Below are positions 4,493 through 29,050 of a DNA stretch of 64,000 nucleotides, piece by piece. How positions within the stretch are numbered: position 1 is the first letter of the stretch; every line of letters starts with the position of its first letter. The position numbers and the translations under genes are program-made. The DNA comes from a virus: positions 1 through 64,000 of the IMG/VR virus record IMGVR_UViG_3300006790_000756, one strand, 5' to 3'. The notes beneath the pieces were generated by a model. That model was given only the letters and a program-made list of their open reading frames with translations. It did no database searches and was not told where the DNA came from.

Positions 4493-5151
4493 ATCTTTCT
4501 CACTATAAAATCCAAGTTATCTGGATCGTAGTGGTCCTTTGCATCTCCAATAATATCCAGTTGGTTCTTGTGTTTATTGACCAACGAGTCTATAGCCTTA
4601 GGACACTCCCTCGAATTACCTTTGTACACGCGAGGATAGTAGTCATCAAATACAATATACCCTCCAGAGTTTACTAGAGGAAAGTAAGAATCAAAGTCTT
4701 TACGAACAGCATCTCCTCTATGATCACCATCAATGAAAAGTAAATCAATACCCTCTGGTAACAAGGCTTTAACTTTTTCTACCGTGCTGGGTGCGTGAGA
4801 GTTTCCTTTTATAATTTTGCAATCATAGTTGTGTTTATTAAACAGATTAACATTATCATTAGCTAGTTTCTCTACATCTCTTACAGAGCAATCCGTAGCA
4901 ATCGTTCCTCCTACAGAGAACAAATCACAACTAACAAACTTAGACTCATAATCGCTTTGAAGAACTGTACACAGGCTATGCCCAAAATGAGTGCCTATTT
5001 CAAAATAATTCTTACAACTCTCCTTCATCAAATGATCTTTTATGTGTAGCAATATGTGATGACTGTAATGGTGAATTCTTTTAAAATTACGGTCATCTTT
5101 GCCTAGCATGGTGGATGCTATATCTTTAGATATTTCTAAGGTATCATTCAT
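4489..5151 (-). CDS. Class I SAM-dependent methyltransferase (O-methyltransferase-like)
   Basis: 220 residues. The SAM-binding motif I appears as NYFEIGTHFGHS; motif II/post-I follows as VSCDLF; the acidic motif LLFIDGDHRGDAV, followed by GGYIVFDDYYP, is characteristic of the Methyltransf_24/CmcI-like group that methylates hydroxyls on sugars and other small molecules. The gene lies 2 nt from the dioxygenase gene upstream and overlaps the HAD gene downstream. In this context the most likely substrate is a sugar or glycan; the real substrate cannot be read from sequence. Confidence 0.7.
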   Translation of the reverse strand: MNDTLEISKDIASTMLGKDDRNFKRIHHYSHHILLHIKDHLMKESCKNYFEIGTHFGHSLCTVLQSDYESKFVSCDLFSVGGTIATDCSVRDVEKLANDNVNLFNKHNYDCKIIKGNSHAPSTVEKVKALLPEGIDLLFIDGDHRGDAVRKDFDSYFPLVNSGGYIVFDDYYPRVYKGNSRECPKAIDSLVNKHKNQLDIIGDAKDHYDPDNLDFIVRKI

Positions 5152-5153
5152 GA

Positions 5154-5924
5154 TCAGGACATCTCCTTCTTTTCATAAAACGCATAATCTTTTAGCCACC
5201 TATCTCCCAAGAAAGCATCTCTACCATGCAGATTGTATTTGTCATTGAATATTATACAATCTCCCTGGCTCCAAGTTTTAGAAAAGTCGTACATATTTCC
5301 ACCTACGATGACATTTTCTAAGAATGTAAAGAACTCTTCTCGGATCCTCATGACCTCTAGTGTGTTAAGATCTTTTTTTATCTGCCAGTAGTTCCAATTA
5401 ATTCTAGAGCCATCAAGTATTGGTTTCTTATGAATCTTATCTCCATCTACTCCAGTATATTTCCAAGTAACCTCTGTTTGAATATCTTCCAACAGACTAG
5501 GATCATACTTCTTCAGTATCGAGATTAAGGAGTCTGTAGAGAATAGATGAGTCTTCCCACCATACTCAGAGGGTTTAATGCAATATAACATTAGCCAGTC
5601 AGGACTCTCAGTGTCATGATAGTATGCATAATCAGAGTGTAAAGGCTGTCTCGTATTAGATGCGAAGTAATGATAAATACTTGGGTCGTACTTCACATCT
5701 CTTGATTTTGAAAACTTAGTGCTTTTATCGTTTACAGGATGACACAGCCGTATAGTCCCTAGACCCTCTGCGGCTTCTTCATACTGCTTTTGGAAGTCTA
5801 TGCCCTTGACATTGTGAATGTGATAGGCTTTATACTTTCCCCACACTGGTTCGAGTCTTTGCAGTACCGTCTGAGTAGACGCCTCCATGTCTATATTGCA
5901 AATACTAAATGGTCTCATAATCAA
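5154..5924 (-). CDS. TauD/TfdA-like Fe(II)/2-oxoglutarate dioxygenase
   Basis: 256 residues. The iron-binding facial triad is visible as PLHSDYAYY (HxD) and the distal His in YNLHGRDAFLGDRWLKDY, with the downstream Arg expected to bind 2-oxoglutarate. Length matches the TauD family. Such enzymes hydroxylate or desaturate small substrates, for example betaines or amino acids; in a sugar cluster it could modify an N-acyl side chain. It starts MIM, so the ATG at 5918 is an alternative start. It overlaps the WbqC-like gene by 20 nt. Confidence 0.75.
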   Translation of the reverse strand: MIMRPFSICNIDMEASTQTVLQRLEPVWGKYKAYHIHNVKGIDFQKQYEEAAEGLGTIRLCHPVNDKSTKFSKSRDVKYDPSIYHYFASNTRQPLHSDYAYYHDTESPDWLMLYCIKPSEYGGKTHLFSTDSLISILKKYDPSLLEDIQTEVTWKYTGVDGDKIHKKPILDGSRINWNYWQIKKDLNTLEVMRIREEFFTFLENVIVGGNMYDFSKTWSQGDCIIFNDKYNLHGRDAFLGDRWLKDYAFYEKKEMS

Positions 5925-6549
5925 ACAACCTTTCTTTTATGTCTACAGAGTCTATAATATCCAGCATGGATGAGGAAGGTGTTCCTTTTATAAATTCTAA
6001 CTTTACTCCATTAGACTCAAATTCTTCTTTAGTGTATAGTTTATGGCCTCCCTCAGCATTTACATAATTGTGAATACCTTTATTCTTACATATCTCTACT
6101 AAGTTTAGTAGCTTGTCATCTGTTTTTGTATATGGTATCTCTGACGACTTCTCAAATTTAGTTGTTATACCTAAGTCTTCACAAAAAGATTTTACTGAGA
6201 GAATAGCCATATCAGATATGGTATCAGGTTTCACATCCAGTAAAACCTCAATAACTTTCATCGCTTTTGGTTTATGGCTGAGATTCTGTCTAAATGTCTT
6301 TATCAACTTAGACATTTCTCTACCATCCCAATCAACCTTTACATCTTTTATCTTTCTGTTCTGGCTAGATTTTTTCAGAGGTATAGTGAACCTTTGAGTT
6401 TTCTTGTTTATGGTAATGTAATTTCTATTTACCCATCCTTTGTTTATAAAATTGACATCATCATAAAATACGAATAGATCTACCTCTTGTATTAGTTGAA
6501 AATACCCTAAGTAAGGAGCGAAGTAGGGTTGCATTATTGCAATCTTCAT
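5905..6549 (-). CDS. WbqC-like family protein
   Basis: 214 residues opening with AIMQPYFAPYLGYFQLI, the highly conserved start of the WbqC family, followed by VFYDDVNFINKGWVNRN. Family members sit in O-antigen and capsule clusters, often beside sugar aminotransferases, and are suspected to act on aminosugars; no activity is firmly established to my knowledge. The same pairing occurs here, since the next gene upstream is an aminotransferase-like gene joined by a TAATG stop/start overlap. A+T content is visibly high. Confidence 0.8.
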   Translation of the reverse strand: MKIAIMQPYFAPYLGYFQLIQEVDLFVFYDDVNFINKGWVNRNYITINKKTQRFTIPLKKSSQNRKIKDVKVDWDGREMSKLIKTFRQNLSHKPKAMKVIEVLLDVKPDTISDMAILSVKSFCEDLGITTKFEKSSEIPYTKTDDKLLNLVEICKNKGIHNYVNAEGGHKLYTKEEFESNGVKLEFIKGTPSSSMLDIIDSVDIKERLFDYETI

Positions 6550-7193
6550 TAGGTATTGTAAGCCTCGAACTTACTAAGATCTGGGTAAGTATGTGTTACA
6601 TCTTCATTATCTTTAGGGGTTCCGTCTATATTGTAAAACTGTTTCATTAACAGAAGACCTCTAGCCGCCAGTTCTGGCATCATGTAAAAGTTCCAACCTA
6701 GCATGTCAAAGTTATCATCCTCATACGAGCATTCTCTTCTTCCACTAAATCTAGCTCTCTTAAACCATAAGTAAGCATCATGATCGTCAGTAAGGATCGC
6801 CCCTCCCTTCGATAGTTTCAAATGTTTATAAGGTCCTGTGAACGAAAGACACATGTGCATATTCGGTTGATACATGTTGTGAGTAAACCTCAATGCAGAA
6901 TCCCAGACATTAGACCCCTCTAGTCTATAGGCTCCTGTCAAGGTATTACCTTCACTCATTCTCCAGCCAACCTTTAAACCAGCATGAATTATCTCGCAAG
7001 GAACGGAAGGGTATGTATTGCTAGGGATTATTATTCTGTCTGTAGTTATTCTCTTTGCAACATTATTTTCATAGTACAACGCCAAGAACAAAGCGTTACT
7101 CATATTGTCCACTGCCACTGCAAACCTAGAACCCGTGTACTCGCAAAGAGACTTTTCAAACTCCTCCGTAATCTTGTAAATGCCATTTGCCAT
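6549..7193 (-). CDS. DegT/DnrJ/EryC1-type sugar aminotransferase, short form
   Basis: 214 residues, against roughly 370-400 for the family. Present are the cofactor-pocket region RFAVAVDNMSNALFLAL, PSNTYPSVPCEIIHAG, the PLP-binding Asp region VWDSALRF, and the probable Schiff-base Lys region SFTGPYKHLKLSKGG. The sequence ends soon after GWNFYMMPELAARG, where canonical enzymes continue with the small C-terminal domain. It is therefore either a minimal enzyme, a regulatory remnant, or a 3' truncation. No obvious continuation lies downstream because the WbqC-like gene starts at once. Confidence 0.7.
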   Translation of the reverse strand: MANGIYKITEEFEKSLCEYTGSRFAVAVDNMSNALFLALYYENNVAKRITTDRIIIPSNTYPSVPCEIIHAGLKVGWRMSEGNTLTGAYRLEGSNVWDSALRFTHNMYQPNMHMCLSFTGPYKHLKLSKGGAILTDDHDAYLWFKRARFSGRRECSYEDDNFDMLGWNFYMMPELAARGLLLMKQFYNIDGTPKDNEDVTHTYPDLSKFEAYNT

Positions 7194-7203
7194 AACTATA
7201 CTC

Positions 7204-7953
7204 TTAGATTGTTTCTATTATCTTTTTTATTTTTTCGGTATAACCCTGTTCTCCTAGATAATGAAGTATTGATACGGATTCTCTATCTACAGACCCTAGC
7301 TCCTGTGAAAAAACATTAATTCCTTTGTCTAAAAATCCCCAGGAAAATCCTTGTATTAAAAGGCTGATGTATACTTGCATTCCTAGGTGTCTGTTTTGTT
7401 TAAGTAGATCATCTAAAATCTCGCGGTTTAAATAGCTTCTTTTGTATAACTCATGCTTTATAGAATTTTTTATTAGAATACAGCCAGCATTGAAGTGTAG
7501 TTTACCTTTTGGAGGAGGATCCATAAGACCACATAATTTATCAATATTTCCAACTGCTTGATTCCCTGCCTTTCTTACATAAATATCTTTTTCATATTCA
7601 AGACACGGAGTTTTCAAAACAATCATATCCGTATCTAAAACTAAAGTGTAATCTCCGTCCATACTGTGCTTAAAAATGTTCTCCCTGCACAGGTATGGGA
7701 TTAACTCCTCTGCGTCGTTTATCACTTCGCAGCCTAGAGCCTCTAATTGATTTTTTTTACTCTCTTTTAGTTCCCTGGAATGGAACACATGGATTGAATA
7801 ATCTAATAAATTTGAGTCCCAATTCTTCTTTATGGATTTTATTAAGTAAACTAACTGATTGTAGTAGCTTGGCTTTTTTCCCACAACCATGCCTATTTGG
7901 CCTGGAGGCGTGAGGTCGTTAAAAGGTATACAAATGTTTATCTTCACTTGCAA
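7204..7953 (-). CDS. Glycosyltransferase, GT-A fold (GT8-like)
   Basis: 249 residues with the nucleotide-sugar/metal site LVLDTDMIVLK (DxD) preceded by a typical Rossmann-like half, and HFNAGCILIKN downstream, the pattern of GT8/glycogenin-like transferases. The C-terminus is a Lys/Ile-rich helix. It would transfer one sugar from a UDP-sugar donor to a growing glycan in the cytoplasm. It overlaps the pyruvyl-transferase-like gene upstream by 10 nt and lies 10 nt before the aminotransferase gene. It is among the most A+T-rich genes in the window. Confidence 0.7.
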   Translation of the reverse strand: MQVKINICIPFNDLTPPGQIGMVVGKKPSYYNQLVYLIKSIKKNWDSNLLDYSIHVFHSRELKESKKNQLEALGCEVINDAEELIPYLCRENIFKHSMDGDYTLVLDTDMIVLKTPCLEYEKDIYVRKAGNQAVGNIDKLCGLMDPPPKGKLHFNAGCILIKNSIKHELYKRSYLNREILDDLLKQNRHLGMQVYISLLIQGFSWGFLDKGINVFSQELGSVDRESVSILHYLGEQGYTEKIKKIIETI

Positions 7954-8930
7954 ATACCTACTATATCATCTTCATTCAGAAAACACTTTGGACGATCCTC
8001 TTTGATATCTTCTAGAAAGTATTTGAGCTTATCGTGTGTAATTAAGCTTGTAAAAGGTATATTGAGGGCATATGCCATCATCTGACTATGGCCTGCTGTG
8101 CAGTAAAGATGCTTGACCTTAGCATAGTTGTGTATGATCTTATTCTCGTTCGCTACAGTGTTGTCTATCAAAGGTAAGTCCATGCCTAGATTCCTTGCGG
8201 TATTATAGAAAGACCTACTTCCATCATGTGACATGATGGCTACTTTTTCTCCTCTGTCTAGTAGCGACTGTATAACTTCCAGTAGCTCCTTATATACTAT
8301 TTGAATAGGCTTACGGTTATACCTTCTATGAAGCCTGTCATCCTTCAATTCAAAGACATGATATTCACCATTGGCAACAAAGTCTTTGTATTTATCCTTA
8401 ACATAGTATACTACTGGGCATAGATCAAATTCGATCTTGGAGTGTAAAGACTCATCTATATGAGACTTCAATCTCTCACAGTCTCCATTATGTCTCATGG
8501 AGAACATTTTAGATTTACTCACAAGACACTCTACATTCTTTTTGAATATATCTTGTCTTGTAGTATCCTCATAGTTGTCTGATCGGGGCATCAAAATAGT
8601 TTGATCATAGAAATGATTCCAGCCTATCCCTATGACATAAATGTCAGAAGTTATCTGTGACATCAGATCATGCGAACATGCCCACTGCCAACACGATATA
8701 TTGTTGGGGTTAGTGTCTGGTAGGAACAGTCCTCCTCCCCCTACTATGATCGCATCAAAGGTATTGAAGTAATCAATATCCTTTTGTGTGACAACCTTTC
8801 TTACATCAAAATTAGTCCAGCTAACACTAGAGTCTATAATCGACTCAAACCTTTTTTTAGTTGAAGGACCTAGAAAGAAGTCTCCCGAGTTTCTACCCCC
8901 ATGCACCGCGTATATGTGTAAAGCTTTCAT
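7944..8930 (-). CDS. Polysaccharide pyruvyl transferase family protein
   Basis: 328 residues. The start ALHIYAVHGGRNSGDFFLG followed by AIIVGGGGLFLPD, VIGIGWNHFY and FSMRHNGDCERL follows the layout of the polysaccharide pyruvyltransferase domain, a GT-B-like fold that moves pyruvate from phosphoenolpyruvate onto a sugar, giving an acidic ketal. It overlaps the NeuB-type gene by 4 nt (ATGA). Together with a nonulosonate pathway it would make the resulting glycan more acidic. The exact acceptor is unknown. Confidence 0.72.
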   Translation of the reverse strand: MKALHIYAVHGGRNSGDFFLGPSTKKRFESIIDSSVSWTNFDVRKVVTQKDIDYFNTFDAIIVGGGGLFLPDTNPNNISCWQWACSHDLMSQITSDIYVIGIGWNHFYDQTILMPRSDNYEDTTRQDIFKKNVECLVSKSKMFSMRHNGDCERLKSHIDESLHSKIEFDLCPVVYYVKDKYKDFVANGEYHVFELKDDRLHRRYNRKPIQIVYKELLEVIQSLLDRGEKVAIMSHDGSRSFYNTARNLGMDLPLIDNTVANENKIIHNYAKVKHLYCTAGHSQMMAYALNIPFTSLITHDKLKYFLEDIKEDRPKCFLNEDDIVGICK

Positions 8931-9748
8931 CCTCTTAGACTCTTTCGTTTCTCAAGTTCTACACCAGCACAGACCCTAGGACCACCATCACCCAAGGATA
9001 GCTCTACATCCCTAATGCCCTTCACTAGCTTTAAAAGTCCTAGTGGCTCTACTGAGGCGAGATGATCACTACCCCACATGGTTCTGTCCAGGGTGACATG
9101 TCTCTCTACCCAGGTAGCTCCCATGGCTACTGAGGCAAAAGTAGTAACTAGACCATACTCATGACCGCTGTAGCCTATATCTCTACCAGGGAAGTTTTCT
9201 CGTAGAGATGTGATATAGTTAAGGTTTAGCTCACTAACAGGTGAAGGGTAGCTTGAGTTAGTGTGCATAATTACATCAGGGTTACAAGCCCCAACACAAT
9301 CAACGATCTCACTCTCTTCACTCATGCCTGTAGAGATCAGGAGAGTGCTTGAGTGTTCTCTAGCTGTCTTACATAAAGTTAGGTCAGTAATGAGTGCGGA
9401 AGGAATCTTTGTTATATCAACATACTCCCTCATAAAGTATGAAGAAGGTTCGTCCCACACGGAGGCGAACCAACCTATACCTTTCTCTTTACAGTATGCG
9501 TCTATCTCGTCGTACTGTGGTTTCTCAAACTCTACCTTGTGCTTGTAATCAAGGTAGGTCATTTCTCCCCAAGGAGTTGATCTCATAACATCCTTTTGAT
9601 GATCTGGTACGCAGACCTCTGGGGTTCTCTTCTGAAACTTTACATAGTCGCACCCTGCTAACGCTGCCGCATCAATAAGCTTCTTAGCTATCTCAACGCT
9701 GCCGTTATGGTTGATTCCTATCTCAGCTATTACTTTTGTACTTGTCAT
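8927..9748 (-). CDS. neuB: NeuB-type nonulosonic (sialic) acid synthase
   Basis: 273 residues with TKVIAEIGINHNGSVEIAK, CDYVKFQKRTP, FASVWDEPS, LLISTGMS and HTNSSYPSP, all landmarks of the NeuB/SpsE/LegI family, which condense phosphoenolpyruvate with a six-carbon aminosugar to give sialic, legionaminic or related acids. It lacks the C-terminal SAF antifreeze-like domain of cellular NeuB (usual length near 340). The frame stays open up to 9781, but ATG at 9748 opens directly into the conserved first strand, so that start is chosen; it overlaps neuA by 26 nt. Which nonulosonate is made cannot be decided. Confidence 0.85.
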   Translation of the reverse strand: MTSTKVIAEIGINHNGSVEIAKKLIDAAALAGCDYVKFQKRTPEVCVPDHQKDVMRSTPWGEMTYLDYKHKVEFEKPQYDEIDAYCKEKGIGWFASVWDEPSSYFMREYVDITKIPSALITDLTLCKTAREHSSTLLISTGMSEESEIVDCVGACNPDVIMHTNSSYPSPVSELNLNYITSLRENFPGRDIGYSGHEYGLVTTFASVAMGATWVERHVTLDRTMWGSDHLASVEPLGLLKLVKGIRDVELSLGDGGPRVCAGVELEKRKSLRG

Positions 9749-10343
9749 AGTCTTGTTGATGATCGACATCCACCTTATCATCTATAGGATAGTAGACTGT
9801 ATCCTCGTTGTACATATTAGAGTTTAAGCTTTCTAACTCAGATACCTTAAAGGCACAGACGAAATGGCTTATCTCAAAACAAGAAGGGTAGTCTTGTCTT
9901 CTATAATAGTCGTGCTTAACTAACTGCGTTCCTTTATTATCATGTTTTTCTAACATCATTAAGAAAGGAGAAACTTTAACTTCTTTCCTACACAGCATAC
10001 TAGAAGCTCTAGATGATTTAAAGAACTCAAGTGCTTTCTTGATATCCTTAGATGTCCTCTCTGGGTATGTTAAGTACAACATTACCACGACATCATCTTT
10101 AGGAAGGTTCTTGCAATACTCCACCATCAACTCTTTAGGAGATGTAGTATCTACAGATAAAGCATTAGGTCTGTCAAGAAACCTTAGACCTATGGAGTTA
10201 CAACTTTGTTGTATCACTTCATCGTCTGTGTATACAACAAGGTCTTGTTTTATATCTTCGTAGTCTAAGTGATTGATCAAAACCCTATTCTTGAAGGGAA
10301 GACCTTTTGACCCTTTTCTCGCTGGGACTACGAAATGAATCAT
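9723..10343 (-). CDS. neuA: NeuA-type CMP-nonulosonate (acylneuraminate) cytidylyltransferase
   Basis: 206 residues starting HFVVPARKGSKGLPFKN, the CTP-binding signature of CMP-sialic acid synthetases, with VVMLYLTYPERT and YYPIDDKVDVDHQQD in the expected places. The product activates the sugar made by the adjacent NeuB-type enzyme. The two genes overlap, so they are probably made in a fixed ratio. No upstream precursor genes of the NeuC, LegB or PseB kind are visible, so the aminosugar substrate would have to come from the host. Confidence 0.82.
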   Translation of the reverse strand: MIHFVVPARKGSKGLPFKNRVLINHLDYEDIKQDLVVYTDDEVIQQSCNSIGLRFLDRPNALSVDTTSPKELMVEYCKNLPKDDVVVMLYLTYPERTSKDIKKALEFFKSSRASSMLCRKEVKVSPFLMMLEKHDNKGTQLVKHDYYRRQDYPSCFEISHFVCAFKVSELESLNSNMYNEDTVYYPIDDKVDVDHQQDYDKYKSNS

Positions 10344-10942
10344 CTATGAACTCCAATAATGTGACCGCAATAAATGAAGTCGTTTTCTAAACAAAACTTT
10401 TGATACATAAGCCCATCAGACTGCTCGGACTTGTCGAACCATCCTCCGTTCTTTCTCCAAAGAGATGTCTTCATTACCAATTGCATTGCGTCTATGTTTT
10501 GATGGATAGGGGGATGCCCGTCTAATATAACTTGATCTCCATCTTTACCAGTCCGAAGTAACCCTTCTTTTTTTCTAATGGTGCCATCTAGGATCACTGG
10601 GCATATGATGATGTCGCTATCCATCTTTGCGATCTCTTGCAAAGTATCAGTATACAAAATATTGTCAGGGTTTAGATGAATTATATATTCACCTTTTGCT
10701 TCTTTAATACCGAGATCTCTTAGGCTGTGTCCCCAGTCATTGTACCTTTTTTTAGTTTCCCTTACTTTCAGATCTAAATTGTACCCAGAGAATTTAGGCA
10801 GTGGTCTAGATACAGGACCATCGTGGTACAGCAAGACCTCGAAGTCTTTGAACTTTGATTGAGATAGGTTGTCCATGCATAAGCATAGAGTCTTGTCATC
10901 AATCACTCCGTCATAGTGCGGCACTATTATCGAGAACTTCAT
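10340..10942 (-). CDS. Glycosyltransferase family 2-like
   Basis: 200 residues. FSIIVPHYDG opens a GT-A fold, followed by FEVLLYHDGP and the acidic metal site IIHLNPDNIL. The frame stays open up to 11047, but ATG at 10942 places the conserved strand at the N-terminus and is preferred; it overlaps the GT4 gene by 32 nt. Likely a cytoplasmic glycosyltransferase that extends the same glycan as its neighbours. Confidence 0.7.
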   Translation of the reverse strand: MKFSIIVPHYDGVIDDKTLCLCMDNLSQSKFKDFEVLLYHDGPVSRPLPKFSGYNLDLKVRETKKRYNDWGHSLRDLGIKEAKGEYIIHLNPDNILYTDTLQEIAKMDSDIIICPVILDGTIRKKEGLLRTGKDGDQVILDGHPPIHQNIDAMQLVMKTSLWRKNGGWFDKSEQSDGLMYQKFCLENDFIYCGHIIGVHR

Positions 10943-12107
10943 TTTTGATTTGTAGTTGCTTGTAGAGATCCAGTCTAAACTTGACGACCTTGTTGATATC
11001 AAAGTATTGATCAGTGACGCTCTTAAGGTTAGCGCCCATCTCCTCACGACCTTTCTTGTCCTTGATCATTCTGGTCATGACCTTTACCCAATCAGACTTG
11101 GTGTTGTTCTTGTCAATCAAGTATCCTGTATGACCATTCTTAATAGTCTCGTCGTAGCATCCACAGTCTGTAGCTACAAGAGGAATACCATAACGGCCAC
11201 ACTCAGCTACTTTAATCTCACTCTTACTGTCATTGAACGCATTGAATTGTAGAGGAGCGATTGCTACATCCATGTGAGTGTAGAACTCACCATAGCGATC
11301 AGGACCCATGGCTTGTCGTACAGCCCAGTTCCTAGCTCCTCTAAAGCCCGCTGTGAGCATTCTAGTATAGTTGTCCCATACATCCTGTTGCCAGTCTGGT
11401 TTTGTGTCTGGGGGCACTGGGGGGCGTCCATAGAAGTCCCAGTGAACGCGCTCACGGCCTGCCTTTTGGTTCACAAGCCAAGGAACACCTACAAACTCTC
11501 TCAGGTCCTGCTCATGGTGAATGCCTCCTACCCAGCCTACACGACATAGATTCTTCCTTTGTGGTGAAACCTTTGGCATGTTCCAGCAAGGAAGCTCGTA
11601 ATCAATGGCATTCTTTACAATCGCAAGAGTTGTCTTTTCACCACAGAAGGGATGTACCCTTTCTGCAAACTTCTGTTGAGTTACAGTTACGAGGTCAGAG
11701 TTGTGATAGATAAACTTAGTAATCTCACTAAGTCCTCGCTCCTCGTATACCTTCTCTAGCCTGTGACCTTTGTAAACATCGGTCAGAAGGTCATCAGTGT
11801 CGTAGTGCATGAACTTGCCAAACTCTTTAGCCTTGCCTACGATACGAGCGGTATATGGTCCACCAAAGTTACTAAGGTTCTGAGTGAAGATAATATCAGC
11901 CCACTTCATATCCTCGAACTCCCAGTCCTGTTTCCACTGCCCCTGCCTTTCACCCTCTTCTTCTATGCCCAAAGGGTTCTTGTTAAAGCGAACTTCTACT
12001 TTATCGCCATAGTGTTGAGCCAGCTTATTAAAAGGTAGCCACGCTCTGTAATACGCACATCCACCATCATTGGCAGGTACAACTAGTATCTTTAGTTTAT
12101 TATCCAT
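10911..12107 (-). CDS. Glycosyltransferase, GT-B fold (GT4-like)
   Basis: About 398 residues. LKILVVPANDGGCAYYRAWLP begins the N-terminal Rossmann domain; GWVGGIHH and the C-terminal donor-binding stretch KVAECGRYGIPLVATDCGCYDE with HTGYLI are typical of GT4. A second start at 12125 is open; ATG at 12107 is preferred because GAG stands seven bases upstream. Its base composition looks closer to the phage core genes than to the A+T-rich genes below it, so it may belong to the older phage set. It overlaps the methyltransferase gene. Confidence 0.75.
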   Translation of the reverse strand: MDNKLKILVVPANDGGCAYYRAWLPFNKLAQHYGDKVEVRFNKNPLGIEEEGERQGQWKQDWEFEDMKWADIIFTQNLSNFGGPYTARIVGKAKEFGKFMHYDTDDLLTDVYKGHRLEKVYEERGLSEITKFIYHNSDLVTVTQQKFAERVHPFCGEKTTLAIVKNAIDYELPCWNMPKVSPQRKNLCRVGWVGGIHHEQDLREFVGVPWLVNQKAGRERVHWDFYGRPPVPPDTKPDWQQDVWDNYTRMLTAGFRGARNWAVRQAMGPDRYGEFYTHMDVAIAPLQFNAFNDSKSEIKVAECGRYGIPLVATDCGCYDETIKNGHTGYLIDKNNTKSDWVKVMTRMIKDKKGREEMGANLKSVTDQYFDINKVVKFRLDLYKQLQIKNEVLDNSAAL

Positions 12108-12684
12108 TGTAAATCTCGTAGTCATCTAGTAAGAAATATGAATTTCCGTTAGTATATTCAAGGTATAAAACCTTCTTGCATACTCTCTTAATTTCTTTGT
12201 TAATCTTATTCCACTCCTTTAGCCCATCTGAATCACAGATCATTCGCCTAAAACCACATACTATCCCAAGATCATACTCTTTATCATCAAAGTTCAGGTG
12301 GCTAACATCCGCTACTAAAAAAGTATGCTCTGGATTATTTTCAGTTGCCAGAGATATGAAAGACTGGCAACTGTCAACCCCCATGTAGTTGTGTGGGTTG
12401 AAGTATTTAGCGAATCTTCCATATCCACATGCAACATCTAAAACCTTAGTATTAGAATTCTTTAGATGATCTTTGAGATTAGAATCAGTGGTTAAAGGAG
12501 TCTTGATAGGATCCAGATTACCTCTGTGTATTAGTTTTTCTATTAGAGAAATATGCCTGTACTCAATAGCATTGAATAAGCAGTGATCTATTCCTGTTCC
12601 TAGAGAATCATGAATAGTTCCTTTTGCTAAGGCTTTTTGTAGTAAACCAGACCAGAAGGACTGTCTTTGAAACTGCTTAAACAT
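12100..12684 (-). CDS. Class I SAM-dependent methyltransferase, first gene of glycan operon
   Basis: 194 residues. The SAM site is VLDVACGYGRFAKYF with MGVDSCQSFI and HTFLVADVSHL; the region after it (YDLGIVCGFRRM) is unusual and the acceptor is unknown. It is the first gene after the promoter-like box and hairpin at 12690-12722, with ATG 5 nt past the hairpin and no clear Shine-Dalgarno site. It may methylate the end of a glycan, for instance to cap chain growth, but only the fold is supported. Confidence 0.68.
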   Translation of the reverse strand: MFKQFQRQSFWSGLLQKALAKGTIHDSLGTGIDHCLFNAIEYRHISLIEKLIHRGNLDPIKTPLTTDSNLKDHLKNSNTKVLDVACGYGRFAKYFNPHNYMGVDSCQSFISLATENNPEHTFLVADVSHLNFDDKEYDLGIVCGFRRMICDSDGLKEWNKINKEIKRVCKKVLYLEYTNGNSYFLLDDYEIYNG

Positions 12685-25424: not shown

Positions 25425-26089
25425 ACTAATGCTCTCCAAGCAACGGGGAACAGTTCCGACATAATATCATCGATAGCAAATGCGTAGTGTTGAGTTTCCT
25501 CTTGTGCGTTGTTGTCACTACGCTGTAACGCAACGCGAGCCAGTGATGCAAGAGAGCCCGTCCAATACCATTCTGTGTACATGCACTGTGGAAGGATGCC
25601 TCTTGCGATCTCTGGTGCAAGTCCTTCAATAATAGACACATCGTAGGTATCTCTAGCAAGGTTTATGGCTTGCTTGTACATATCGTACACTCTCTCCTTG
25701 CCTTCAATCTCCTTATCACCTGATCCTTGCTTGATACTTTTATCAGGCCGTTCACGCCAGTAATTAGGAGTGTAGAAATCAGGTTCAAAATCAACATAGC
25801 GGCGCGAGATCTCATTTTCTACCATGCCTACCTTATGCTTGAAGAGTTGCGTCCTCACAAAGATCGGCGCCTTTATGTGAAATTGAACCTGAGGATGGGC
25901 GAATGGGGTCCAATGGTTATGCTTTGCGAGATAGTTGATGAGCTTCTCATCTCCTTCATCTAGCTCATCTTTGCGCTTGTTAAAAGAAACTCGCGCAGCA
26001 TTAACCACAGTAAGATCGGACCCCATCCAATCGATAAGACGGACGAAGCCGTGATCCAAACACTCAACAGTATAGTTCTTATCAATCAT
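25421..26089 (-). CDS. thyX: Flavin-dependent thymidylate synthase
   Basis: 222 residues. HWTPFAHPQVQFHIKAP and then FKHKVGMVENEISRRYVDF correspond to the ThyX substrate/FAD region (usual form RHRxxSxNExSxRY; here KHK replaces RHR, a conservative change). The C-terminal LARVALQRSDNNAQEETQHYA completes the family pattern. It makes dTMP from dUMP using FAD and methylene-tetrahydrofolate, complementing NrdJ. The gene is joined by overlaps to the polymerase gene before it and to gp47 after it. Confidence 0.87.
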   Translation of the reverse strand: MIDKNYTVECLDHGFVRLIDWMGSDLTVVNAARVSFNKRKDELDEGDEKLINYLAKHNHWTPFAHPQVQFHIKAPIFVRTQLFKHKVGMVENEISRRYVDFEPDFYTPNYWRERPDKSIKQGSGDKEIEGKERVYDMYKQAINLARDTYDVSIIEGLAPEIARGILPQCMYTEWYWTGSLASLARVALQRSDNNAQEETQHYAFAIDDIMSELFPVAWRALV

Positions 26090-27194
26090 TAAAATACTCC
26101 AGTAACTCTGTTATGTTTTGGACGGCTCCGTCCTTGTAATGAACCTCTTGACCGTCACCGAATGAACGACCTACTTCGGCATCAATCTTGAGGGGTACTT
26201 CGAAATGGATATTGAAATCCTTACGGAGAGTAGGCGTCTCCACTAGTTCATTATAGCACACTTCAAGGCATTCCTGCAATGAATTCTTCGGACATGTTAT
26301 CTCAAGTGAGTCGTGGACAGTAGATACAATCTTAGCTCCCGTTGCTGGTAGAGATTGGCTAAGTCCTTTGATACCACATAGGATGATGTCTGATGCGGCT
26401 GACTGGATAGTAAAGTTGAGACCTTGGCGTAGAGCCCTGCGAACAATCTTGTCATCCTTAGACCTGACATTAGGTAGTCTTCGCTTGCGTCCGAAGATAG
26501 AAGTGATGTAACCGTCCTCTCTGATCGTTTCGTAAGTGTTGTTGATATACGACCCGATGCCTGGAAAGACTTCCATGTAGGTGTTGATGATATGCTCTGC
26601 TCGGTCTAGTGAGATTCTGTTATTGTTAGCGAGCGTGAAAGCAGTACCACCGTATACGATGAGGAAGGAGGTTGCCTTAGCAATCTGTCGCTCCTCTTTT
26701 TGAACCTTCTCTGCGGACTTGTTGAACAATAGTGAGGCAGAGTAGGTGTGTAGATCGACGCCATCTTTGAATGCCTTACACATGCGTTCATCCTCGGCTA
26801 CATGCGCGAGAACTCGTAGCTCCATGCCTGCGTAGTCGATGGTGACAAACGCCTGATCCTCAGGTGCTACAAAGATGCGTCGAATGTTATTGTTGGTATC
26901 CCGAGGTAGCGTATGGAATGATACACCCATCGCCTTCTCAGCATTGTAGGAGCCGCAAGAGAGCCGACCCGTGACTGTGCCATCGAGCTTGTAATCACAG
27001 TAGACCTTGTTACGACCATTGTATTCAATAGCCGTGTGTAAACCCCGAATGTAGGTCTTGTGAAGCTTCGCTGCCGCACGATAGTCGAGCAGCCCAGAGA
27101 TCCACTCTCTTGCTTGTTCTAGTTCCTCAGTTGAACGCTCTTGTAGAACACTACGAGCGGTCAGCTTTTCTTTGTCTTCTCGTCTTCTTGGCAC
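26082..27194 (-). CDS. DNA polymerase family A, polymerase domain (third frame of a split enzyme)
   Basis: 370 residues read from a GTG at 27194. The product begins just before the thumb/palm boundary (LLDYRAAAKLHKTYI) and holds motif A DYAGMELRVLAH near 120, motif B RQIAKATSFLIVYGG near 171 and motif C STVHDSLE near 292, including all catalytic carboxylates. GRLSCGSYNAEKAMG matches the template-binding region before motif A. It lacks exonuclease and N-terminal thumb parts, which lie in the two upstream frames. The 44-nt overlap with the middle frame lets the two be coupled or joined by frameshift. Confidence 0.85.
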   Translation of the reverse strand: MPRRREDKEKLTARSVLQERSTEELEQAREWISGLLDYRAAAKLHKTYIRGLHTAIEYNGRNKVYCDYKLDGTVTGRLSCGSYNAEKAMGVSFHTLPRDTNNNIRRIFVAPEDQAFVTIDYAGMELRVLAHVAEDERMCKAFKDGVDLHTYSASLLFNKSAEKVQKEERQIAKATSFLIVYGGTAFTLANNNRISLDRAEHIINTYMEVFPGIGSYINNTYETIREDGYITSIFGRKRRLPNVRSKDDKIVRRALRQGLNFTIQSAASDIILCGIKGLSQSLPATGAKIVSTVHDSLEITCPKNSLQECLEVCYNELVETPTLRKDFNIHFEVPLKIDAEVGRSFGDGQEVHYKDGAVQNITELLEYFND

Positions 27195-27663
27195 GGTCGT
27201 TCAGTTCGTCAGTAATGAAATCGAGTAGTTCATCAAGGGTTGCCTTGTCAGTTGAAGGGTCGCCCTTGCCTGTACGCTTAGGAGGATATAGTAGGAACCC
27301 ACCCTCATCAGTGTAAAGGATATCTCTAAGATCTACAGTCGATGCTAGGTTAGCACCACGCTTCACTTGCTTGTACATAAGAAGGTCATCCTCCTTAGAC
27401 ATAGCCTGCTTGTCCAGACTCTTACCCACAGAGCCTAGCTCCTCTGGGGCTACATGCAAACCTTCATACTCCATGTCAGAGAACACAGGTAGCACAGGAG
27501 ACAGTAGCTTCTCCATCACATGCCAGCACCCTTCTTCTTTCAGTAGTTCCTCTAAGGAATGGAACAAGCGAAGAGTGAAATGAGTATCCATAGCATTACC
27601 ATGGAGACAGTCACCGAGTGGAATATTGGCCCAGTCGAAGTTTTTGTCATTTACAGTAAGCAT
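27151..27663 (-). CDS. DNA polymerase family A, middle piece (end of exonuclease plus thumb start)
   Basis: 170 residues. The first part contains GNAMDTHFTLRL, the position of exonuclease motif III, but the usual Tyr four residues before the Asp is Gly here. It continues with LLSPVLPVFSDMEYEGLHV, the linker and thumb start found in PolA-type enzymes, and PPKRTGKGDPSTDKATL. It ends in a basic tail NDRAKKTRRQRKADRS that has no counterpart in intact PolA and is encoded by the overlap with the next frame. Its start overlaps the upstream stop as TGATG, typical of translational re-initiation. Confidence 0.8.
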   Translation of the reverse strand: MLTVNDKNFDWANIPLGDCLHGNAMDTHFTLRLFHSLEELLKEEGCWHVMEKLLSPVLPVFSDMEYEGLHVAPEELGSVGKSLDKQAMSKEDDLLMYKQVKRGANLASTVDLRDILYTDEGGFLLYPPKRTGKGDPSTDKATLDELLDFITDELNDRAKKTRRQRKADRS

Positions 27664-28673
27664 CAGAGTTGGTCAATGCCCTCAGGGAAGAATAGTTTAA
27701 CGAGTTCCTTCAAGCTCTTGGGAACATCCTCGTTCCACAGGTGAGCCATCAGCTTAGTATCATAGACATTCGTTGGGTAGATTCCAACATTGTGTAGGAA
27801 TTTCAGGTCGAACTTCGCATTGTGAAAGACCTTGCGGTTGTTAGGATTCTCAAGAATCTTCTTGACAACATTCAGGATGTAGTCAGTATCCTTCCAAGGT
27901 GTGTCCTTGTGTAGCAGAGGAATGGCGTAGTTCTTGTCCTTGGCAGAGATCGCAATCGTGTTAAGCTTATCGGTCAGGAAGTTCAGACCTGTAGTCTCAG
28001 TATCAACTGCAATATCCTCGTCGGTTTCGGCCAGCCAAAGTATCTTGTCAAGATCATCGTCGGACATGATAAGATCCACAGGAATCTTCTCTGCCTTGAT
28101 GCCCGTGATCACCTTGGCAAGGGCGTTCTTAATGTCCTGTTCAAAAATGTACCGATTCTTTGGCTCGGTATGAACAGCGTATGGGTGGAAGATAGGGACG
28201 CATACGAACTGGTGGTTACCAGTATCGATATCGAATGCGTTGCCTCTCTTGGTTGTGATACCAGACTTCTTAGTCACCATCTTGAACGCAAGATTTCCAC
28301 ATGCGAACACTAGCTTAGGCTTGACCTGATCAATCGTGGCCCAGAGGTGCTGGCGACAAGCGTGAGTATCAGCAGTCTTCATGTCTGATTCACGCACAGA
28401 AGGGCACTTTACAGCAGCAGAGAAGGAAACTCTACAGTCGCCTGGGAGATCTGATGCCACAAGGATATCAGTAAGCGTCTCCACATCTCGGCTGTTAAAA
28501 GGATTACTCCTCCCATTATGAAACACGAAAGAATCAGAAAGAAAAAGTACATCAGCCTCATCCATAGATTCATAATCTTGGATGCAATGGGTTGGCTTGT
28601 TCCTTTTGAGTTGGGAGCAGCCTTGGCAGAACGGGTGGATAGGAGCTTCTTCATAGAGGTTAGATAGTTGCAT
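27663..28673 (-). CDS. UDG-like domain fused to 3'-5' exonuclease N-terminal half (first piece of split polymerase)
   Basis: 336 residues. Residues about 10-190 resemble family 4/5 uracil-DNA glycosylases: an iron-sulphur set C16, C19, C90, C106, VFACGNLAF and the late IFHPYA. The catalytic GEAPG-type loop is replaced by FLSDSF at about 44-49, so glycosylase activity is doubtful. Residues about 195-336 are a DnaQ-like exonuclease with motif I DTETTGL near 222 and motif II HNAKFDLKFL near 285; motif III is in the next frame. A CTATTATAG box lies 11 nt upstream, shared with the divergent sigma gene. Confidence 0.8.
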   Translation of the reverse strand: MQLSNLYEEAPIHPFCQGCSQLKRNKPTHCIQDYESMDEADVLFLSDSFVFHNGRSNPFNSRDVETLTDILVASDLPGDCRVSFSAAVKCPSVRESDMKTADTHACRQHLWATIDQVKPKLVFACGNLAFKMVTKKSGITTKRGNAFDIDTGNHQFVCVPIFHPYAVHTEPKNRYIFEQDIKNALAKVITGIKAEKIPVDLIMSDDDLDKILWLAETDEDIAVDTETTGLNFLTDKLNTIAISAKDKNYAIPLLHKDTPWKDTDYILNVVKKILENPNNRKVFHNAKFDLKFLHNVGIYPTNVYDTKLMAHLWNEDVPKSLKELVKLFFPEGIDQL

Positions 28674-28699: not shown

Positions 28700-29050
28700 A
28701 TGAGTAGACATTACATAGACAACAAACGCTTCGAGGAGCTTATCGTATTATACCTCCAAGATCGCAAGGCTCACGAAGAAGAACTGTTTTCTATGTTCGA
28801 CCTGTTGGTATCCAATGTCATGGGTGCATTCAACTTTGATGTGGACCCTGAGGACGCCAAGCAAGACTGCTTTGTGTTAATATTGAAGACGCTCCAAAAT
28901 TTCAATCCTGAAAAAGGGAGCGCCTTCAATTTCTTTACAACTGTTATCGTAAATAACTTAAAGCTTGTTTACACTAAGGACAAAAAGTACGCAGAGAAGA
29001 TCAAGGCTTTCGAGGAACTGCGAGGGTATCGAGGTCCATCTCAGCCCTAA
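28700..29050 (+). CDS. 55: gp55-like late sigma factor
   Basis: 116 residues. The core DAKQDCFVLILKTLQNFNPEKGSAFNFFTTVIVNNL resembles sigma region 2 as kept in T4 gp55 (an acidic helix, NF-x-P/E-K, then FxxFFT-x-I-x-N), which binds core RNA polymerase and recognises the -10-like late box. It is much shorter than T4 gp55 (185 residues) and lacks the C-terminal hydrophobic/acidic tail that contacts the sliding clamp, so clamp-coupled activation is not evident. It is one of only two plus-strand genes; its last 50 nt overlap the minus gene at 29001. The factor probably recognises the CTATWATAG boxes, including its own. Confidence 0.7.
   Translation: MSRHYIDNKRFEELIVLYLQDRKAHEEELFSMFDLLVSNVMGAFNFDVDPEDAKQDCFVLILKTLQNFNPEKGSAFNFFTTVIVNNLKLVYTKDKKYAEKIKAFEELRGYRGPSQP

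Follow-up and report, generated by a model that had tools for sequence, protein, structure and literature searches.

Three overlapping open reading frames encode the parts of one family-A polymerase

The stretch of viral DNA analysed here (positions 1 to 64,000 of IMG/VR record IMGVR_UViG_3300006790_000756, referred to below as the window, 64,000 nucleotides (nt) in length) carries on its minus strand three open reading frames, ORF1, ORF2 and ORF3, which lie in three different frames and correspond in succession to the parts of one family-A (PolA-type) DNA polymerase (Table 1). An initial annotation, made from the sequence alone, had described this layout, with a TGATG junction between the first two ORFs and a 44-nt overlap with a GTG start between the last two, and all of these features were recovered. 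No insert is present in the window at either the ORF1/ORF2 or the ORF2/ORF3 junction.

Table 1. Features of the polymerase locus in the window (aa, amino acids; UDG, uracil-DNA glycosylase)
Feature	Coordinates	Strand	Basis
ORF1: UDG-like domain and exonuclease motifs I and II, 336 aa	27663..28673	-	profile matches, predicted fold
UDG-like domain, ORF1 residues 16-192, with Cys16, Cys19, Cys90, Cys106	28098..28628	-	alignments; 4zbx E 4.6e-14
Exonuclease motif I (D224-x-E226), in ORF1	27996..28004	-	alignments
Exonuclease motif II (N285...D289), in ORF1	27807..27821	-	alignments
Junction 1: TGATG, ORF1 stop and ORF2 ATG overlapping, near E. coli Pol I residue 472-482	27661..27665	-	
ORF2: exonuclease motif III part and first part of thumb, 170 aa	27151..27663	-	profile tiling
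Exonuclease motif III, in ORF2: Asp26 (Klenow D501) kept, Gly22 replaces Tyr497	27586..27600	-	Klenow alignment
Junction 2: 44-nt overlap, ORF3 GTG start at 27194, in thumb near Pol I residue 617-625	27151..27194	-	
ORF3: last part of thumb, palm and fingers, motifs A, B, C, 370 aa	26082..27194	-	PF00476, Klenow alignment
Palm motif A catalytic Asp (D120), in ORF3	26835..26837	-	invariant in 34/34 aligned rows
Palm motif C His-Asp (H294-D295), in ORF3	26310..26315	-	invariant in 34/34 aligned rows

Profile searches matched ORF1 to the UDG family PF03167 (E 3e-9) and to DNA_pol_A_exo1 PF01612 (E 4.8e-21), and ORF3 to DNA_pol_A PF00476 (E 2.3e-78); ORF2 alone matched PF00476 weakly (E 0.005, 16.3 bits against a cut-off of 34.3). 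The phage polymerase profile phrog_17 was covered in succession by ORF1 (497-784), ORF2 (794-938) and ORF3 (926-1250), and the family profiles likewise tiled the chain positions of the Klenow fragment (ORF1 7-136, ORF2 159-294, ORF3 302-585), from which the Pol I residue numbers at both breaks were derived. The predicted fold of ORF1 aligned with the family-4 UDG 4zbx (Z 17.9 over 168 residues) and with Klenow structure 1kfs at Pol I residues 324-472 (Z 14.8, 140 residues, 2.4 Å). A family-4 UDG-like fold with four cysteines was thus found in the ORF1 model and in the alignments, and the spacing of Cys16, Cys19, Cys90 and Cys106 is presumably that of the [4Fe-4S] cluster ligands of family-4 enzymes.

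Neither break lies at a domain border. Break 1, between ORF1 and ORF2, falls between exonuclease motifs II and III, and break 2, between ORF2 and ORF3, falls inside the thumb, given the limits that we take this domain to have in Pol I; ORF2 contains no complete domain. Motifs A, B and C of the palm and fingers, with both catalytic Asp residues, are all found in ORF3, and the polymerase domain nevertheless extends over two polypeptides, since the thumb is shared by ORF2 and ORF3. The profile tiling and the Klenow alignment bear out the earlier placement of the motifs across the three ORFs and the division of the exonuclease active site between two polypeptides. The initial annotation did not remark that break 2 divides a domain as well, the thumb.

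The three-way split is conserved among relatives

Relatives were collected by three scans of viral contigs, from which the best 80 of 195, 80 of 169 and 80 of at least 326 confirmed matches were kept, with identities from 100% down to 24%. When the family profiles were run over all ORFs of at least 40 aa in the 232 fetched loci, many of which are repeats of one contig, three separate ORFs were found in 193 loci, break 1 only in nine, break 2 only in one and a single gene in five, and one or two of the families were missing from 24. Nineteen of the 24 incomplete loci were inspected, and in all 19 the fetched DNA stops at most 1.8 kb from the expected site of the missing piece.

Four phage records were added to the scan, two of them with all three families, and reduction to distinct ORF2-domain sequences holding all three families gave 115 rows, comprising 98 with the three-way split, nine with break 1 only, seven intact and one (L230) with break 2 only. 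L230 was rejected as a genuine break-2-only case because Ns lie at its junction. In one locus, L064, ORF2 is itself interrupted by a frame change (4560-4987); it was kept in the three-way count.

The ORFs are separate in the nearest relatives as well (L002-L006, 95-100% identity in ORF3). An intact gene in relatives, the outcome named in the initial annotation as speaking against a real split, occurs in 7 of the 115 distinct rows, and all seven are distant, at 24-31% identity to the proteins of the window. The three-way split is a conserved, inherited trait and not a sequencing error. An artefact of sequencing or assembly that divided one gene might be suspected from the metagenomic source of the DNA, from the Ns at the L230 break and from the interrupted ORF2 of L064, but identical breaks recur in 98 distinct relatives, on contigs of many samples and down to an ORF1 identity of 36% (L209), and one carrier lies within a Prochlorococcus single-cell assembly, so that the chance of such an artefact is negligible.

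Junction geometry and inserted DNA

Among the 98 three-way rows, the ORF1 and ORF2 open frames overlap in 65. In the other 33 a gap of 184-2394 nt separates them, and in 25 of these 33 the gap contains an opposite-strand ORF of at least 80 aa. The open frames of ORF2 and ORF3 overlap in 96, the exceptions being L064, with a gap of 3 nt, and L194, where a 504-nt gap holds a kinase-like gene (scores under Pfam cut-offs). ORF2 starts with ATG in 96 of the 98 rows (no start was found in two), and its N-terminus reads Met-Leu at the same profile position in 93 three-way rows, the other five having a gap there, and in all nine break-1-only rows. For ORF3, the first start codon in frame is a GTG in 62 rows, an ATG in 27 and a TTG in nine. 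The proposal that the junctions are compatible with translational coupling agrees with the geometry of most rows: of the 98, 61 have the ORF2 start at position -1 relative to the ORF1 stop, and 94 have the first ORF3 start codon upstream of the ORF2 end. In 33 rows, however, other DNA separates ORF1 from ORF2.

Programmed frameshifting at both overlaps could be envisaged to join the three ORFs into one chain, as both junctions of the window are short overlaps. In the 33 loci with 184-2394 nt between ORF1 and ORF2, however, 25 of them with an opposite-strand ORF, frameshifting is excluded by the insert, as is assembly error. The frame relation of the ORFs also varies among the relatives listed, and the Met-Leu start of ORF2 at a fixed place further argues against read-through from ORF1. 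Frameshifting is thus a very unlikely explanation.

In the insert-bearing three-way loci a TATATAG/TATGTAG box stands exactly 2 nt before the ORF2 ATG in 25 of 33 cases (L030, L052, L058, L061, L072 and others). It precedes no other ORF of at least 80 aa in the five loci checked, and it is absent before ORF2 in the window, which has no insert. This arrangement suggests that ORF2 probably has its own expression signals in the insert-bearing loci, the box possibly being a promoter that yields an mRNA with almost no leader, or one that also serves the opposite-strand gene.

Ten inserted ORFs were scanned, giving two glycosyltransferases (L103 and L105), one HNH endonuclease, one kinase-like protein, one ThyX, which belongs to the break-1-only relative L214, and five without a match. 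The HNH endonuclease gene lies at break 1 of L196 (8002-8619) and is a possible trace of how such breaks arise. With no insert in the window and zero Rfam matches in 11 insertion loci, the locus does not present itself as a polymerase gene interrupted by a homing gene or intron, but given the HNH gene among the ten inserted ORFs scanned, the breaks may have originated long ago in this way.

The pieces might also be rejoined by trans splicing of RNA or of protein, through introns or split inteins. Phage polymerase genes often harbour introns and homing genes (excerpts of PMC10580990 and PMC2988022), a split family-B polymerase (PolB) with a putative split intein has been reported (excerpt of PMC6892783), and the HNH gene of L196 would fit such a history. 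Against this, searches of Rfam gave zero matches above gathering scores in 11 insertion loci (no intein search was made), ORF1 and ORF2 overlap by 1 nt at break 1 in 61 of 98 rows, and the alignments of ORF1 and of ORF2 contain no extra block at the break. We regard rejoining by splicing as highly improbable.

Order and origin of the breaks

A tree built from 57 palm sequences recovered the split clade with good support (100/99) and needed three changes to account for all labels. The six break-1-only rows that were long enough to use formed one group (99/88), L182, L213 and L216 being left out for having too little palm, and the three-way row L194 fell weakly with them (90/37). In this tree the named outgroup rows do not fall on one side of a branch and long branches meet, and phiSHEF16 was counted as intact although its annotation shows a further ORF between two polymerase ORFs. 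A second tree of 36 rows, from which ten loci and phiSHEF16 were left out and in which closer rows were thinned harder, gave the three-way group a support of 62/21. The simplest reading of these trees would be that break 1 arose first and break 2 followed, and the shared profile position of the Met-Leu start of ORF2 speaks for a single origin of break 1.

The break-1-only group could instead derive from later joining of ORF2 and ORF3, as in L182. Here the two are joined in frame, and the ORF2 part shares 98% identity with ORF2 of the split relative L174 and 94-97% with ORF2 of four more split relatives. L182 thus appears to represent a recent ORF2-ORF3 joining, as would be expected if the products of ORF2 and ORF3 sit side by side.

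Active-site residues and selection

The ratio of non-synonymous to synonymous substitution (dN/dS), calculated against four close relatives (L003-L006) with the ORF overlaps left out, was 0.05-0.09 for ORF1, 0.04-0.05 for ORF2 and 0.02-0.05 for ORF3; synonymous sites were saturated in a fifth relative, L007. Purifying selection acts on all three ORFs.

Exonuclease motifs I and II are invariant in 32 of 32 aligned rows. Across the three-way rows, the DxE of motif I is present in 94 of 98 (four gaps), and the Asp and Asn of motif II in 98 and 95 of 98, respectively. For motif III, the Asp is present in each of the 115 rows, split or intact. The four acidic residues of a DEDDy exonuclease are therefore present, distributed over two chains, but the motif III tyrosine is missing: Gly takes its place in all 98 three-way and all nine break-1-only rows, and so in every one of the 107 rows with break 1. 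Four of the seven intact rows retain the Tyr (three have a gap), and it is also found in L230. As judged from these alignments, the loss of the Tyr appears to go together with break 1 itself or with the ancestor that acquired it.

The four cysteines of the UDG-like domain are likewise invariant in 32 of 32 aligned rows and are present in 93 of 98 three-way rows (five gaps), and in the break-1-only rows the first two were aligned in only two of nine. Neither these cysteines nor the loss of the motif III Tyr figured in the initial annotation. Palm motif C reads VHDS in 94 of 98 three-way rows (four gaps), as against HDE, which we take to be the Klenow motif. The HDS variant is not tied to the split, because intact rows carry it too (HDS in four of seven, HDA in two, a gap in one).

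The coupling of the Tyr to Gly change to break 1 in 107 of 107 rows raises an alternative, in which the working polymerase would consist of ORF2 and ORF3 only, with proofreading lost and ORF1 acting as a separate protein, for example a uracil-binding or single-strand nuclease factor. ORF2 and ORF3 are joined in the break-1-only rows and in L182, in keeping with this view, and joining of ORF1 to ORF2 beside break 2 was seen in no row except L230. However, the acidic residues are retained in both exonuclease chains and the dN/dS of ORF1 is low, at 0.05-0.09, and we consider this alternative unlikely.

A proposed replicase of three chains

Our preferred reading, to which we assign a probability of roughly 0.85, is that the replicative polymerase of these phages consists of three chains that are translated separately and work only as a complex. 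It draws on the colinear tiling, the conservation of the split, the DNA inserted between ORF1 and ORF2 in a third of the three-way rows, the purifying selection on each ORF and the retained catalytic acidic residues. The UDG-like domain and most of the 3'-5' exonuclease would come from ORF1. ORF2 would complete the exonuclease and begin the thumb, and ORF3 would complete the thumb and contribute the palm and fingers with the polymerase site. All three chains would be made and would dock non-covalently, rebuilding a single family-A fold in which two chains together form the exonuclease site. Where the ORFs overlap, ribosomes would re-initiate on a common mRNA to produce ORF2 and ORF3, and re-initiation at TGATG or TAATG and at the overlaps would balance the amounts of the chains. 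ORF2 could hardly work alone if it takes its place in the Pol I fold, and for this reason the pieces should assemble non-covalently.

The trio was the only family-A match in six records of 68-131 kb (that of the window and five relatives of 98-131 kb), and these contained no family-B match (PF00136), family C not having been searched. As the genome of the window also encodes UvsX, a DnaB helicase, SSB and SbcCD-like genes, the trio is probably the phage replicase.

Several points weigh against a three-chain enzyme. The records searched for a second polymerase may be incomplete. Structure predictions covered single chains only (ORF1 and ORF2 singly), and that of ORF2 was of modest confidence, with a predicted local distance difference test (pLDDT) score of 73.7 and a predicted template modelling (pTM) score of 0.33. 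A Foldseek search with the ORF2 model gave no match at E <= 0.001, and structural comparison aligned it closely only at residues 103-151 (Z 4.5, 45 residues). The exonuclease may moreover be weak or altered, because the motif III Tyr is Gly in every row with break 1. A stronger proposal, that of an obligate heterotrimeric family-A replicase with a two-chain, Tyr-less proofreading site in which ORF1 would be an interchangeable module turning proofreading, and perhaps uracil sensing, on or off, is conceivable, although we lean against it.

If the three-chain reading is true, a stable natural PolA of this kind, with its cuts in the exonuclease active site and the thumb retained across widely diverged relatives, would show how a replicase can be built from parts and offer natural break points for split-polymerase tools, and it could be asked whether subunit assembly regulates proofreading in these phages. 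Separately annotated polymerase fragments in such phages would then have to be read as one enzyme.

Carrier phages and neighbouring genes

Typing of the phage by its capsid protein covers the window only. This protein is T4 gp23-like and, among the 15 of 2484 matches listed, is about 28-29% identical to those of T4-like coliphages and cyanophages and 35% identical to that of an uncultured 595-kb phage. One carrier contig (L072) is identical in sequence to QCKN01000003.1 (L244), a 130.6-kb phage contig in the Prochlorococcus single-cell genome AG-409-P03, which was the only confirmed match among 84,980 species genomes (nine stretches matched the pattern and one was confirmed). Its presence in this single-cell genome points to cyanobacteria as a host lead, and some carriers may infect, or stick to, cyanobacteria. 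Against 50,697 phage records, ORF3 had no match of at least 60% identity, the 40 listed of 4492 matches lying at 29-32%. Two ORF2 queries of the phage records returned one and five records at 27-30% identity, including MW202455, which has a single polymerase gene.

Elsewhere in the window, a weak late-sigma-like ORF on the plus strand (28700-29050; phrog_234, E 3.5e-4) is divergent from the polymerase ORFs, and a sugar/surface-glycan block (5154-12684) holds NeuB, cytidylyltransferase, DegT aminotransferase, pyruvyl transferase, WbqC, glycosyltransferase, TauD-like and methyltransferase genes.

Comparison with known systems

Family-A polymerases such as Klenow, Taq and T7 are textbook single chains. 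The order of UDG-like domain, 3'-5' exonuclease and polymerase is shared with the SPO1-like and PaBG-like DNA polymerase I (PaBG, excerpt of PMC7412058; SBSphiC, L236, from profile matches). These differ from the trio in being one polypeptide, and the motif III Tyr is kept in four of seven intact rows, those with the column aligned.

The initial annotation had drawn a parallel with Rhodothermus phage RM378, a far-T4 phage that encodes exonuclease and polymerase separately. As an analogy this is valid, the two activities lying on separate genes in both, but the RM378 enzyme is of family B (PF03104, PF00136), its PolB exonuclease and PolB catalytic genes are about 57 kb apart and it has no PF00476 match, whereas none of the six records examined here contains PF00136. 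RM378 was also rejected as a three-way homologue, because its candidate genes proved to encode a 5'-3' exonuclease, a product without a match and a family-B exonuclease, and nothing in the record matched family A. The excerpted text of PMC4360716, on far-T4 phages, does not contain the word 'split'.

A split within family A itself is described in an excerpt of PMC10580990 for the Methylophilales phages MEP401 and MEP402, in which a marine-phage PolA is divided into two ORFs with a small ORF between. The second part in MEP401 matches the ORF3 profile only from column 121 on, which places its break in the palm and not in the exonuclease or thumb; in the trio the whole palm lies in ORF3. In the T4-like Aeromonas phages 25 and 44RR the polymerase is split into gp43A and gp43B, and the parts from phage 25 co-purify and are active (excerpt of PMC2988022), which is a precedent for the proposed assembly of the trio. 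The gp43A/gp43B enzyme is a two-part polymerase of family B, and its break is occupied by either a homing gene or an untranslated spacer (same excerpt). Jumbo phages have DNA polymerase III alpha split into separate proteins (excerpt of PMC7824862), and thus share with the trio a split catalytic subunit of a phage replicase, though not of family A. In the literature searched (open papers) we found no PolA in three parts whose exonuclease site is divided. Split phage polymerases are therefore already known as PolB, as PolIII and as a two-part PolA, and beside them the conserved three-part PolA described here appears new among the literature searched.

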